Shown here one piece after another: positions 3,110-30,486 of a DNA stretch of 32,936 nucleotides. Each line of letters begins with the position of its first letter. The stretch's first letter is position 1. A program made the position numbers and the translations under genes. The stretch is from Candidatus Jettenia ecosi (lineage in GTDB: Bacteria; Planctomycetota; Brocadiia; Brocadiales; Brocadiaceae), in the NCBI GenBank assembly GCA_005524015.1, contig SULG01000033.1:1-32936 (forward strand), given 5' to 3'. Below the pieces are notes generated by a model, which was given only the letters and a program-made list of their open reading frames with translations, made no database searches and was not told the origin of the DNA.

Positions 3110-4024
3110 ATGGCTGAAACGAGAAAGATCCACAAAGTCTTGAAAAGTAAACCTACAATCGAAGGGGCTGGCGTCCATCTTGAACGGGCGTTCGGACATA
3201 GCCAGGTTCCGATGTTTGATCCTTTTTTGCTGCTGGACGACTTTCGTTCAGACAATCCGATGCACTATAGTAAGGGCTTCCCATGGCACCCGCATCGCGG
3301 AATTGAGACAATCACCTATGTTCTCCGTGGAGATGTAGAACACGGCGACAGCATGGGAAATAAGGGCATTATATCCTCTGGTGATGTACAATGGATGACC
3401 GCCGGAAACGGGATCATACATCAGGAAATGCCCAAAGGAGACCCTGATGGTCTGATGTTCGGATTTCAACTTTGGGCTAATCTCCCCAAATCCCATAAAA
3501 TGACGGAGCCTCGCTACCAGGATGTGAAAAGTAATCAAATCCCGGAAGCAGTGCTGGAGAACGGCACAAAAATCAGGATTATATGCGGAAAGGTGAATGG
3601 TAAGCAAGGACCTGTCCGGGACATCATTATCGATCCGGAATACATCGATGTAACAGTTCCTGCCCGGTCGGAATTCATCCATCCCACCAGGCACGGCCAC
3701 ACCGTTTTCGCATATGTCATCGAGGGTAAGGGGTACTTTTGCAAAGAGAAGAATCCGTTTTCTTATGAAATTGAAGGAGCCAACTATTTTGATATTCAGA
3801 GAGACCCCTTTATAAGTAATAAAACCCTCGTCCTATTTGATGATGGCGATCAGATAATGGTCTCAACAGAAGACGATGCTATCAGGTTCCTGCTCATATC
3901 GGGTAAGCCTATTGCTGAACCGGTTGCATGGTACGGCCCTATTGTAATGAATACGGAAGATGAACTACGGATTGCCTTTGAAGAGTATTCCCATGGCACA
4001 TTCATCAGGCACAAGAGAGCTTAA
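3110..4024 (+). CDS. Pirin family protein
   Basis: 304 residues, with an N-terminal cupin (about 20-130) and a C-terminal cupin (about 170-290). The metal-binding set of pirins is complete: H60 and H62 in the HPHRG motif, H104 and E106 in the HQE segment. Bacterial pirins are iron-binding proteins; some act as quercetinases or redox-linked regulators, but the substrate cannot be read from sequence. The start is supported by AAGGAG 9 bases upstream. It stands alone between two repeat-rich spacers, so there is no operon context. Family assignment is firm, biochemical role open. Confidence 0.92.
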   Translation: MAETRKIHKVLKSKPTIEGAGVHLERAFGHSQVPMFDPFLLLDDFRSDNPMHYSKGFPWHPHRGIETITYVLRGDVEHGDSMGNKGIISSGDVQWMTAGNGIIHQEMPKGDPDGLMFGFQLWANLPKSHKMTEPRYQDVKSNQIPEAVLENGTKIRIICGKVNGKQGPVRDIIIDPEYIDVTVPARSEFIHPTRHGHTVFAYVIEGKGYFCKEKNPFSYEIEGANYFDIQRDPFISNKTLVLFDDGDQIMVSTEDDAIRFLLISGKPIAEPVAWYGPIVMNTEDELRIAFEEYSHGTFIRHKRA

Positions 4025-4681: not shown

Positions 4682-4755
4682 CACAACACGTTTGAATTTC
4701 CTATACATATAACATGTACGTAGGGCAACTCTTTCGGGTTGCCTGGCAAGGCTAA

Positions 4756-4875
4756 ACAGGCTGTCCGAGAATGCAATTACCACCTGCAACATATGCTATA
4801 TGTTGCGTCTATTGCAATAGTTAATCAATATATAGTACGGATTTGATCCGTAAAAACAATTCTCGGGCAGCCTGT
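4756..4875. mobile_element. 120-bp palindromic element, copy 1
   Basis: Ends are ACAGGCTGTCCGAGAAT and its near-perfect inverse (one mismatch). Inside are two further hairpins (a GCAACATAT/ATATGTTGC stem and a TACGGAT/ATCCGTA stem). It differs from the copy at 6496-6615 by only two substitutions and has no reading frame. Immediate flanks 4743-4755 and 4876-4888 are inverted copies of each other (CTGGCAAGGCTAA and TTAGCCTTGCCAT) but unrelated to the flanks of copy 2, so the element sits in the centre of an older palindrome. Confidence 0.8.
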
Positions 4876-5074
4876 TTAGCCTTGCCATACATCGACTCCG
4901 TTTTTTCATGAGGAAAGATCGTAAGATTTTACATCTCTCCTGCTAAAGATAGCCTCATGTATGATTTATGTAAATACCGAATGAGAGAACCATGATCAGG
5001 AGTGTTTCTCTTTAAGTTATCTCTTGAAACGAGTCATATCGCCAACTTTTTGAAAGATAAAGAAAGGAGTTCAG

Positions 5075-5641
5075 ATGAATACAGAGAAAATGGTTACTAT
5101 TTTAGGTTTTGCGGGGAGCTTACGGAAAGAATCCTACAATAAATCGATCTTACAGGCTGCCCTGGAGTTTCTTCCGGAAGATGCAAAACTTGAAATCTTC
5201 GATCTTGAAGGGATTCCCCTATTTAGCCAGGACATGGAAAATCAATTCCCGGATAAGGTCAAGCAATTCAAGGCAAAAATCAGGGCTGCCGATGCTATTC
5301 TTATTGCTTCGCCGGAATATAATTACTCAATACCAGGCGTCCTGAAAAACGCAATTGACTGCGCTTCCAGGCCATATGGAGATAATGCCTTCGATGGAAA
5401 ACCGGTAGCGGTAATGGGCGCTTCTATCGGAATGACGGGAACGGTAAGGGCACAATATCATCTCAGGCAGAGCTTCGTTTTCCTCAACATGTATCCCATA
5501 AATCAGCCGGAGGTTATGGTACCGTTTGCTCATGAAAAAATTGACAAAAACGGAAAGGTGACCGATCAAAAAACAAAAGAAAAAATTAAGGAGCTCATTG
5601 AAAGTCTAGTAGCCTGGACGAAGAGACTTAAACAGAGTTGA
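5075..5641 (+). CDS. NADPH-dependent FMN reductase family protein
   Basis: 188 residues with a flavodoxin-like fold. The phosphate-binding loop is GFAGSLRKESYNKSIL (about 11-26). The flavin-contacting segment SPEYNYSIPGVLKNAID lies at about 80-96, and a GMTG loop follows near 118. This matches the ChrR/ArsH/NAD(P)H:quinone reductase group. It likely reduces FMN, quinones or oxyanions with NAD(P)H in the cytoplasm. Start supported by AAAGGAG 8 bases upstream. It lies 180 bp before the selenoprotein candidate on the same strand, which may mean shared redox or stress physiology, but a hairpin separates them and an operon is not shown. Confidence 0.88.
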   Translation: MNTEKMVTILGFAGSLRKESYNKSILQAALEFLPEDAKLEIFDLEGIPLFSQDMENQFPDKVKQFKAKIRAADAILIASPEYNYSIPGVLKNAIDCASRPYGDNAFDGKPVAVMGASIGMTGTVRAQYHLRQSFVFLNMYPINQPEVMVPFAHEKIDKNGKVTDQKTKEKIKELIESLVAWTKRLKQS

Positions 5642-5691: not shown

Positions 5692-5822
5692 CATCTTTTC
5701 AGACAGTCTCTAAGGTTACTTCCGTGAAAATCGATAAGATACTTTATCAAATGGTTTCTGAGATCATTCGGTTCTTGCAGGATTTACTCATTAATAACTT
5801 TACTATTTAAGGAGGCATTACT

Positions 5823-6392
5823 ATGGAAAATAAAATTACGTGGGAATCGCAGATGGATGCTGCTCTATCAAAAGCACAGTCTGAGAAAAAACCGGTGTTA
5901 CTCGATTTTTTTAATCCGGGCTGAATCGGCTGTCAACAGATGGATGCGGTCTCGTATCCTGAGAAAAGAGTTAATGAATTCATTACCAATTCTTTCATTC
6001 CACTACGTGTACGCTCTGATGCTCAACCCATTGCTACTAATTTTAACTTGAAATGGACCCCAACCCATATAGTCCTTGATACTGAAGGTAAGGAACATCA
6101 CAGGACAATAGGTTTTCTTTCTCCCGAAGAGCTAATTCCTTCATTATTACTGGGGATAGCAAAGGTACATTTTGATTTGAGTGAATTTAAGGAAGCGATT
6201 TCAAAATTGGAAAAGGTTTTATCAGATTTCCCTGAAAGCGGTTCGGCGCCGGAAGCAATGTATTTAAGAGGTGTGTGTTTATACAAAAGCACGAATAACT
6301 CAAAGGGACTTAAGGATGCTTACGAACAACTCCAAAACACGTATCCAGAGAGCGAGTGGACAAAGCGGGCATCTCCCTACCGACTTTTATAA
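5823..6392 (+). CDS. Thioredoxin-like protein with C-terminal TPR, probable selenoprotein (UxxC; in-frame TGA at 5922-5924)
   Basis: Read through one TGA, this is a 189-residue protein. It opens with MENKITWESQ, then KPVLLDFFNPG, then TGA (codon 34), then IGCQQMD with C37. The TGA falls exactly where thioredoxin-like proteins have the first Cys of CxxC, giving U-I-G-C. The fold continues with P80 (WTPTH, the cis-Pro position) and a beta-strand IVLDTEG. Residues about 108-182 form a TPR-like helical hairpin set (KVHFDLSEFKEAISKLEKVL). The frame is open for 155 codons after the TGA. AAGGAGG (5809-5815) lies 7 bases before the ATG. A SECIS-like hairpin follows the TGA at the right distance (5942-5959). 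No signal peptide is seen, so it is probably a cytoplasmic thiol/selenol oxidoreductase. The alternative is a pseudogene in which TGC/TGT became TGA; its intact remainder and the hairpin argue against that. No sel genes are in the window. Confidence 0.8.
5942..5959 (+). promoter_or_regulatory. Bacterial SECIS-like hairpin
   Basis: GGATGC (5942-5947) pairs with GTATCC (5954-5959): six pairs including one G-U, closing the six-base loop GGTCTC. The loop starts 23 bases after the TGA, inside the 16-37-base spacing known for bacterial SECIS elements, and has G at both of its first two positions as the consensus requires. The loop resembles the GGUCU core of the E. coli fdhF SECIS. All bases also code (M40-P46), as expected for a bacterial SECIS. 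Confidence 0.75.
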
Positions 6393-6495
6393 TTGTGCAT
6401 CCTGTGATTGTAAATTAGGCTATCTTCGGCAGTAGAAACAGGTTTAAAATCTGCCCCTACTCATGAAAAAATAGAGGAATGTAGGGCAAACCTTT

Positions 6496-6615
6496 ACAGG
6501 CTGTCCGAGAATGCAATTACCACCTGCAACATATGCTATATGTTGCGTCTATTGCAATAGTTCATCAATATATAGTACGGATTTGATCCGTAAAAACAAT
6601 TCTCGGACAGCCTGT
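6496..6615. mobile_element. 120-bp palindromic element, copy 2
   Basis: Nearly identical to 4756-4875 (two substitutions), with a perfect 17-bp terminal inverted repeat. Its flanks are a different palindrome: TAGGGCAAACCTTT on the left and AAAGGTTTGCCCTA on the right. Recent duplication of a non-coding mobile unit is the simplest reading. No gene is present between 6393 and 6870. Confidence 0.8.
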
Positions 6616-6663
6616 AAAGGTTTGCCCTACAGAATTAAATTTCTTATACATTGAATTAAGCTA
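6614..6663. other. Spacer between two mobile elements
   Basis: Only 48 bp separate the 120-bp element from MITE copy 2. They contain the end of the older palindrome (AAAGGTTTGCCCTAC) and a TTTCTTATACATTGAATTAA motif, a variant of TTTCCTATACATTAAAT that ends many repeat clusters in this window. Confidence 0.4.
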
Positions 6664-6811
6664 TACACAGCGTCATTAATCAGATACGAATATGTCATTA
6701 CCGCGGAAGCGGGAATCCAGAAAAATATTGGATTCCGGGTCAAGCCCGGAATGACAGACGCTTGTCCTCGAATGTAGTTATCGGGGAGTTGTAAACTTAT
6801 GTCGCTATGTA
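6664..6811. mobile_element. MITE copy 2 (TA-flanked)
   Basis: 148 bp, near identical to 2698-2867 but lacking the 22-base segment found there. It begins TACACAGCG, ends CGCTATGTA, and has TA on both sides (6662-6663, 6812-6813). It ends 59 bp before the hydrolase start codon and supplies much of that gene's leader. An ATG inside it at 6799 is in frame with the hydrolase but belongs to the repeat. Confidence 0.8.
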
Positions 6812-6870
6812 TATTTCATGCCACTCTGAAGAAATATCAAAACCCTAAACCAAACGTAAAGGAGCTACCT

Positions 6871-7503
6871 ATGAATACAAAATACACTTACCACCGCCTC
6901 TCTAAGGACAACGCTGCCGTTCTGCTTATTGACCATCAATCCGGCCTCGTCAACCTTGTGCAGGACTATTCGCCAGCCGATTTCAAGAACAACGTCCTCG
7001 CTCTGGCCGACCTCGCCAAGTATTTCAAGCTGCCGACCATCCTGACGACCAGCTTTGAGGAAGGTCCCAACGGCCCAATCATGCCAGAACTTAAGGAAAT
7101 CCACCCGGAAGCCGATTACATTCCGCGTCCCGGCCAAATCAATGCCTGGGATAATGAGGACTTCGTGAAAGCGGTCAAGGCCACCGGTCGCAAGCAGTTA
7201 CTTATCGCCGGCGTTCTGACCGAAGTTTGCGTGGCCTTCCCCGCTCTCTCTGCGTTGGAGGAAGGCTTCGAGGTCTTCGTTGTCACCGATGCTTCCGGCA
7301 CATTCAACGAGGTCACGCGCCACGCCGCTTGGACGCGCATGGTTGCTGCGGGCGCGCAATTGATGAACTGGATAGCTGTTGCCAGCGAATTGCATCGTGA
7401 CTGGCGTAAAGACATTGAGGGACTTGGCAAACTGCTATCCAGCCACTTGCCTGCTTACAGAAACCTGATTACGAGCTACTTGGCAAAGAAACCTGTGGCC
7501 TAA
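6871..7503 (+). CDS. Isochorismatase/cysteine hydrolase family protein (YcaC-like)
   Basis: 210 residues from the ATG at 6871, chosen because AAAGGAG lies 7 bases upstream and the in-frame ATG at 6799 is inside the MITE. The alpha/beta hydrolase-like fold of this family is clear: D21 in LLIDHQSG, a PRPGQINAWDN segment at 85-95 and the nucleophile C120 in GVLTEVCVAF. YcaC-type proteins are oligomeric cysteine hydrolases of uncertain substrate. The coding sequence is visibly richer in G+C, with many GCC/CTC/GTC codons, than all its neighbours. Together with mobile elements just upstream this suggests recent horizontal transfer. Nothing in the context points to a substrate. Confidence 0.88.
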   Translation: MNTKYTYHRLSKDNAAVLLIDHQSGLVNLVQDYSPADFKNNVLALADLAKYFKLPTILTTSFEEGPNGPIMPELKEIHPEADYIPRPGQINAWDNEDFVKAVKATGRKQLLIAGVLTEVCVAFPALSALEEGFEVFVVTDASGTFNEVTRHAAWTRMVAAGAQLMNWIAVASELHRDWRKDIEGLGKLLSSHLPAYRNLITSYLAKKPVA

Positions 7504-27930: not shown

Positions 27931-29043
27931 TTATGCCGTACCTTTTTTAGCGGCTAGGGGTAATATCTTCTCTTTACCAATATCTAGGATATGATCTGTT
28001 ATTCTCTCTATAGCATTTCTCTTTGCATCTAGCTGTTTATGGTTATACCTCATGGTCATGCTAACATCTGAATGGCCTAATAACTCTTTTGTGGTAACAA
28101 TGTCTGATCCTGTATCGCTGGAAATTGAGGCAAAGCAATGTCTCAGGCTATGGAATGAGAAGTTATCAATCCCGATACTCTTAAATAGTTTGTTGAAACG
28201 CTGGCTATATGATGCTGCAACTAGCCTGGTAATAACTCTATCCTCAAAGATAGTGCCGCTGTTTCGTTGATAACTTTGGAATTCTTCTGCCAGAAAGCTT
28301 GAAAGTGGAATAGTAACAAGCCTACCTGTTTTACTCTGGATGAAAGTTATTAAGCCTTTAACAAAATCAATATCAGACCACTTCAAACGTAGCACCTCAC
28401 CTAGACGCATGCCGATAAAGAGACTGGTTAACACTATTAAGCGATCTTTACCCGTTAGCTTATTAAAGAGCAATCCAACTTCTGATTCTGACAATATTCT
28501 ATCTTTTGATTGCGTTATCTTAAATCGCTTTACCTCTCTACATGGATTCCTATCTAGAAGACCTGCCTTGATTGCAGTATTAAGGATATGGGTAAGAATA
28601 ATAACGTCCTGATTAATACTGGATTCCTTAACACCATCTAGCTTTTTACGGTCAATCCTGTATTTTTCAATGATAAATGGTGTTATTTTATCAAGCCGAA
28701 TTTCTCTCAGATGCCGAATAAAAGCATTTACCGCCCTTCGCTTTGATACAATAGTATTCTCTCTGGCTGTCTTGTGTAACTCCAGGTATGTCTTTGAATA
28801 CTCTACTAAGGTAGGAATGTGTTTCTTCTTGGGCAGATTCAATTGACCTCTCTCACGATCTGAGATAAAGAGTGCAAGTCTCTTTTCTGCATCTGACTTG
28901 TTCCGTATATCCCCGAAGGTAAGCGATTGCCATTCCTTATTATCGTCAAAGAACTCAATACACCATGTGCCACAGGTCTTGTATTCACCATTTGCCCTCT
29001 TTTGGCCGATCACCTGGACAATAGCTCTTGCCTGGCCTGCCAT
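27931..29043 (-). CDS. Tyrosine recombinase / phage-type integrase
   Basis: 370 residues. An N-terminal arm-binding-like domain (about 1-75) is followed by a SAM-like core-binding domain (about 75-170), where a VEYSKTYLELHK-type segment is seen. The catalytic domain (about 180-345) has R in GMRLGEVL, HSLRH (His and Arg), H in LLGHSDVS and the nucleophile Tyr in MTMRYNHK. All catalytic residues are present, so it may be active. No clear ribosome binding site precedes ATG 29043. It is the only integrase in the window and defines the element between the 15-bp repeats. Confidence 0.9.
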   Translation of the reverse strand: MAGQARAIVQVIGQKRANGEYKTCGTWCIEFFDDNKEWQSLTFGDIRNKSDAEKRLALFISDRERGQLNLPKKKHIPTLVEYSKTYLELHKTARENTIVSKRRAVNAFIRHLREIRLDKITPFIIEKYRIDRKKLDGVKESSINQDVIILTHILNTAIKAGLLDRNPCREVKRFKITQSKDRILSESEVGLLFNKLTGKDRLIVLTSLFIGMRLGEVLRLKWSDIDFVKGLITFIQSKTGRLVTIPLSSFLAEEFQSYQRNSGTIFEDRVITRLVAASYSQRFNKLFKSIGIDNFSFHSLRHCFASISSDTGSDIVTTKELLGHSDVSMTMRYNHKQLDAKRNAIERITDHILDIGKEKILPLAAKKGTA

Positions 29044-30135: not shown

Positions 30136-30486
30136 CTATAATCCATTGAATAAGCTCCTTGAGTTAACCTCTGGTTGAAAGTTACAGTATAAGACCCCTA
30201 CCGTCTTTGGCTTCTCTTCTCCTGCATCTGCCTTGCGGCTTCCCTTGAAGCTCTCGAAGGTGTATTTATGCCACCCTTGATATAAACGGTCATATAAGCC
30301 ATTCTGGTAGTGTGTGACCATAACATGGCCTTTTAGCATGTTTGCAAGGGCTTGGTGGTCATCGTGCGTAAAGTTTTCCTTCCCATAATACCCTTCTGCA
30401 TTCAAATATGGTGGATCACAGAAGAATAACGTGCCTTTAGAATCATACCGCTGTGCCGCTTGCTCAATGCTAGTATAACGTTTCAC
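30136..30486 (-). pseudogene. DNA adenine methylase (Dam-like), N-terminally truncated
   Basis: 116 residues corresponding to the C-terminal half of phage-type Dam methylases: catalytic DPPY (LFFCDPPYLNAEGYY) near residue 25, then HDDHQALANMLKGHVMVTHYQN and a C-terminal YCNFQPE. The SAM-binding F-x-G-x-G region and the target-recognition domain that should precede DPPY are missing. Just upstream (30501-30680, same strand) is a transposase remnant, so an insertion or deletion removed the 5' part. Unlikely to be active. Confidence 0.8.

Follow-up and report, generated by a model that had tools for sequence, protein, structure and literature searches.

A probable selenoprotein with a thioredoxin-like UxxC domain and a TPR extension in an anammox bacterium of the Brocadiaceae

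The selenoproteins predicted by Zhang et al. in 2006 (PMC1794560) include a 'thiol:disulfide interchange protein' in Geobacter metallireducens, G. uraniireducens and Syntrophus aciditrophicus, and reviews published in 2022 and 2026 list the same family under PF13098, with a UxxC motif and WP_011366075.1 as representative (PMC9312934, PMC13188914). A second point of reference is CnoX (YbbN) of Escherichia coli, a fusion of thioredoxin and TPR domains that carries an SXXC motif and does not catalyse the reduction of insulin (PMC8129009). The gene analysed here lies in a stretch of 32,936 nucleotides from Candidatus Jettenia ecosi (contig SULG01000033.1, hereafter the window), part of a 3.86 Mb assembly from an anammox bacterium of the Brocadiaceae. 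To judge from titles and abstracts in the selenoprotein and anammox literature, PMC4807772 included, the gene has apparently not been described.

The reading frame and its in-frame TGA

The gene occupies positions 5823–6392 of the window on the plus strand. Direct translation gives 189 codons followed by TAA, with a sole internal stop, TGA, at codon 34 (5922–5924), and its assignment as a thioredoxin-like UxxC protein with a TPR part draws on the translation with TGA read as U, on Pfam and on full-length homologues. The residues around the TGA are NPG-U-IGC, so that Sec34 would have Cys37 (TGT, 5931–5933) as its resolving partner. A ribosome binding site, AAGGAGG, can be read directly at 5809–5815, 7 nt before the ATG, and 155 open codons follow the TGA. 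The original prediction had described a lone TGA in an otherwise intact frame of this length, behind a clean ribosome binding site and with this many codons beyond it, and re-translation and counting agree on each point. It had also expected automatic annotation to miss the start of the gene, and calling with table 11 does yield only a 150-aa fragment, 5940–6392. A promoter scan found no plus-strand site upstream of the gene, and an Rfam search of the window returned no match.

The TGA is conserved far beyond this genome. Among 130 aligned homologous sequences from Brocadiales, Desulfobacterota, Geobacteraceae, Nitrospirota and others, the codon is TGA in 126 and TGC in four; in a tree of 136 rows it is TGA in 121 and a Cys codon in 15 (9 TGC, 6 TGT). 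A survey of 98 related genomes gave 12 Brocadiaceae homologues that reach codon 34 (75–93% identity), and all 12 have one internal stop, the TGA. The column therefore holds TGA or Cys in relatives, as the original prediction had proposed to check. Random stops elsewhere in relatives, which it had named as the mark of a pseudogene, amount to one extra TAA in one MAG (L031), the lone case among full-length relatives. A scan of named genomes recovered 212 relatives, of which the best 80 belong to Desulfobacterota, Geobacteraceae, Nitrospirota and a few others; the TGA homologues of Geobacteraceae are 53–58% identical to the window protein and that of a Syntrophus sp. MAG 63%. Viral contigs held no relative, and plasmids gave no match. 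In close pairs, dN/dS is 0.01–0.19 before the TGA and 0.05–0.26 after it, and likewise low in the TPR part, which indicates that the portion past the TGA is translated and useful.

A SECIS-like hairpin and the selenocysteine machinery

The predicted hairpin of bacterial SECIS type spans 5942–5959 on the plus strand and begins 18 nt beyond the TGA. Read directly, its stem consists of 6 bp between GGATGC (5942–5947) and GTATCC (5954–5959), closed by the loop GGTCTC (5948–5953). Spacing and loop G were both part of the original prediction and are borne out here, with the addition of covariation among homologues. The G at the second loop position is invariant, and standard pairs fill 99.0% of the cells of the stem over 87 distinct sequences, compared with 19–62% when the stem is slid by 1–3 columns. 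Compensatory, double-sided changes affect 17 cells where shuffles lead one to expect 3.1, and none of 500 shuffles scored as high. Some of this compensation is silent, since Asp41 (GAT) pairs with Tyr45 as TAT and Gly41 (GGT) mostly with Tyr45 as TAC. Fold energy was rejected as evidence for a SECIS element: the single hairpin sequence is thermodynamically ordinary (z −0.64, with 50 of 200 shuffles folding equally well), so the case rests on comparison and conservation.

The hairpin also encodes the peptide MDAVSYP, and codon-level constraint on this peptide inflates the apparent conservation of the stem. Two observations argue against such constraint as the whole cause. One concerns synonymous sites: codon 44 ends in G, a base paired within the stem, in 79 of 79 cases, and four-fold sites outside the hairpin region have a mean entropy of 1.75 bits. 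The other is a comparison with Cys-form relatives within the Geobacteraceae, where all six stem pairs are present in 18 of 19 TGA genes, whereas the 13 Cys-form genes have only 2–4 of the six left. The latter form one clade with 100/100 support (loci L203–L216) and so reflect one evolutionary event, not 13 independent samples. Their genomes retain selA, which rules out the Cys form as a plain result of lost Sec decoding; the hairpin most simply decayed because the gene no longer needed it. This reversion from Sec to Cys, together with the decay of the hairpin, offers a clean natural control for bacterial SECIS function.

All four genes of the selenocysteine machinery, for which the original prediction had recommended a search, are present in the Jettenia genome. 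The selA and selB genes adjoin each other on contig C16, a tRNA-Sec gene (selC) with anticodon TCA lies on C85, and selD is on C26 (L055:1501-2427). This selD is a selenoprotein gene too: its active-site sequence, CGGUAGK, contains an in-frame TGA. Across 62 Brocadiales genomes, selA or selB was found in 29 of the 32 with the TGA form and in 7 of the 30 without it (Fisher p 7e-8, uncorrected for kinship). The three TGA-bearing genomes with neither gene above cut-off (G007, G015 and G047) are all fragmented MAGs, in one of which (G015) a partial selA is present. Both selA and selB are absent above cut-off from the two Cys-form Brocadiales genomes (G048 and G061). In several Geobacteraceae (L217/G117 and others) the gene lies ~4–9 kb from selA, which is not so in the Jettenia genome.

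These data bear directly on two other accounts of the TGA. A pseudogene or a sequencing error, leaving the 150-aa downstream fragment or nothing as the product, would explain why a stop interrupts the frame and why standard calling opens an ORF at 5940. We consider this vanishingly improbable and rejected it, because the same TGA occurs in more than 120 homologous sequences together with a paired hairpin that is lost in the Cys forms; moreover, purifying selection is similarly strong on either side of the TGA, random stops do not accumulate in relatives, and a start at the internal ATG at 5940 would drop the active site. Readthrough of UGA occurs in general, and the codon might in principle be read as Trp or another near-cognate residue, or act as a regulatory stop. 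This too is very unlikely, given that relatives without the TGA always have Cys in its place, that the SECIS-type hairpin is kept only alongside TGA, and that the genome holds the full Sec machinery. Insertion of selenocysteine, by comparison, is supported as far as sequence allows by the conserved TGA, the covarying hairpin and its decay in Cys forms, the machinery and the pattern of selection, and the gene almost certainly makes a Sec-containing thioredoxin-like protein.

Domain structure, proposed action and genomic context

The thioredoxin-like and TPR parts of the original prediction are both matched by Pfam families above their cut-offs, namely PF13098 (Thioredoxin_2; E=1.9e-10, 41.4 bits against a cut-off of 27), PF13899 (Thioredoxin_7; E=1.7e-9) and PF13174 (TPR_6; E=6.3e-9); the DsbH-like Pfam family is likewise above cut-off. 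In the AlphaFold2 model of the whole protein (mean pLDDT 97.1), a thioredoxin-like domain of DsbD-gamma/DsbH-like type, encoded by 5823–6140, has Foldseek and VIA matches to DsbD-gamma. It is followed by a short TPR domain (6141–6389), whose helices begin at residue 101 and run to the C-terminus, and VIA matches of this C-terminal part include BamD and other TPR chains at Z 13. The cis-Pro that had been predicted is supplied by W78-T79-P80 (Pro80 codon, 6060–6062). Both Cys37 and cis-Pro80 are invariant among homologues, which fits a redox UxxC site. No N-terminal signal sequence is apparent in the window protein.

With a high degree of confidence, we read the locus as an intact Sec gene, most likely for a cytoplasmic UxxC-TPR thiol/selenol oxidoreductase. 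From comparison with homologues, SelB and tRNA-Sec would decode the UGA at codon 34 as Sec, guided by the hairpin downstream. Fold and motif suggest that Sec34 would then attack a disulfide or an oxidised thiol of a client, that Cys37 would resolve the selenenylsulfide, and that the TPR domain may bind the client or a partner. The protein is most likely a cytoplasmic selenol/thiol reductase with a partner-binding TPR.

A related proposal is that the protein is a selenium analogue of the chaperedoxin CnoX/YbbN: with its TPR it would act as a holdase on stressed proteins, and with its thioredoxin domain it would guard their cysteines. Foldseek ranks YbbN of E. coli (3qou) first (E 2e-7), a protein that is also a thioredoxin-TPR fusion (PMC8129009), and the pirin and isochorismatase-family hydrolase genes found beside the gene in Brocadiaceae loosely suit a stress or redox context. 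We nevertheless regard the analogy as doubtful. The Foldseek agreement is poor over the whole length (TMq 0.43, rmsd 12), a sequence profile search at E 0.01 did not find YbbN, and the TPR comprises ~80 residues here compared with two five-helix subdomains in CnoX, while the catalytic position that is kept as Sec or Cys in this family lies in an SXXC motif in E. coli CnoX. A selenol/thiol reductase remains the preferred reading.

Three genes on the plus strand surround the locus. The pirin gene (3110–4024; Pfam Pirin and Pirin_C) recurs next to it in Brocadiaceae and the isochorismatase-family hydrolase gene (6799–7503; Pfam E=2.6e-23) adjoins it in many Brocadiaceae, the conservation of both being confined almost solely to this family; an NADPH-dependent FMN reductase gene (5075–5641; Pfam FMN_red, E=1.6e-46) is adjacent in two same-genus genomes only. 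With no neighbour shared by more than 10 of the 73 other loci, the surroundings of the gene provide no general hint at its function. Elsewhere in the window, an intergenic repeat of 147 nt is present in two copies that are 93% alike (4745–4891 and 6480–6632), of which the copy at 6480–6632 is flanked by 33-nt exact inverted arms (TGTAGGGCAAACCTTTACAGGCTGTCCGAGAAT) and resembles a MITE or a mobile hairpin. Several further intergenic repeat families occur in the window, along with a minus-strand gene (27931–29043) for a phage-type integrase and an ORF (30136–30486) that by eye resembles a fragment of a DNA methylase and has no Pfam match.

The Jettenia genome has three Sec paralogues in all, the window gene included. 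The other two, L060 (contig C12:30965-31510) and L061 (contig C31:32115-32657), are also UxxC-TPR proteins with ~39% identity to the window protein. They have N-terminal hydrophobic stretches, which the window protein does not, and may be exported. Some related genomes carry a tandem pair of such paralogue genes (L032, L034). A separate observation concerns long proteins (>600 aa) of genome G077 (L071 and L075). They begin with a peroxiredoxin-like region, have a TGA within a thioredoxin-like UxxC stretch in the middle and end in a part rich in repeats, possibly another selenoprotein architecture. In the tree, the Brocadiaceae orthologues of the window gene form one clade (100/97) within the diversity of Desulfobacterota and separate from the Brocadiales paralogues. 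This nesting suggests a transfer into Brocadiaceae, likely from Desulfobacterota, in a tree where some deep forks are weak and the donor MAGs loosely named.

Relation to known families

Four NCBIfam models, NF041382, NF041383, NF041199 and NF045694, gave 17–43 bits on the window protein against cut-offs of 275–805. Its likeness to these thioredoxin-like selenoprotein models (VPGUxxT types 1 and 2, Trx7/PDZ and TsoB) covers the thioredoxin-like part and is far under the cut-offs. Although this is a large family, with 212 relatives recovered by a single scan, the window protein is above the cut-off of no NCBIfam model. Anammox Brocadiaceae have several Sec thioredoxin-like proteins that ordinary gene calling truncates, and with this truncation the active site is lost from annotation and from proteomic databases.

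Among proteins of solved structure, the DsbD gamma domain (1uc7, 2fwe) is similar in fold and sequence to the N-terminal domain of the window protein. Unlike DsbD, the latter is free-standing, without transmembrane or periplasmic alpha domains, and it differs from the gamma domain in having Sec for the first Cys, an appended TPR and no apparent signal sequence. Of the solved proteins that share its domain order, a thioredoxin fold followed by a C-terminal TPR, CnoX/YbbN comes closest, whereas the window protein has a much smaller TPR, another domain arrangement and UxxC in place of SXXC.

The closest relationship is with the family predicted in 2006. Both have PF13098, which is the best Pfam match of the window protein, and a UxxC motif (here U34-I-G-C37), and the taxa of the 2006 prediction compare with TGA homologues found here in many Geobacteraceae and in one Syntrophus sp. 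MAG. Since domain, motif and occurrence in Geobacteraceae and Syntrophus are shared, the two are very probably the same family. The claim of a new selenoprotein therefore holds for a new member and not for a new family, which was very probably predicted already in 2006 (PMC1794560, PMC13188914). We find it improbable that the TPR-fused DsbD-gamma-like selenoproteins instead differ from the 2006 family and constitute a distinct, unnamed one with its own function, whether as a selenium-based chaperedoxin or a partner-specific reductase; such a family would have a wide distribution that spans anaerobic Desulfobacterota, Geobacteraceae, Nitrospirota and anammox bacteria, the anammox copy having been acquired from Desulfobacterota beside the host's own exported Sec paralogues. 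The passages that describe the 2006 family in the published accounts make no mention of a TPR fusion, which the window protein has. The present comparison extends that family to anammox bacteria, with three Sec paralogues in the Jettenia genome, and adds the TPR fusion, a likely acquisition from Desulfobacterota and, in the Geobacteraceae, a natural control for the change from Sec to Cys.
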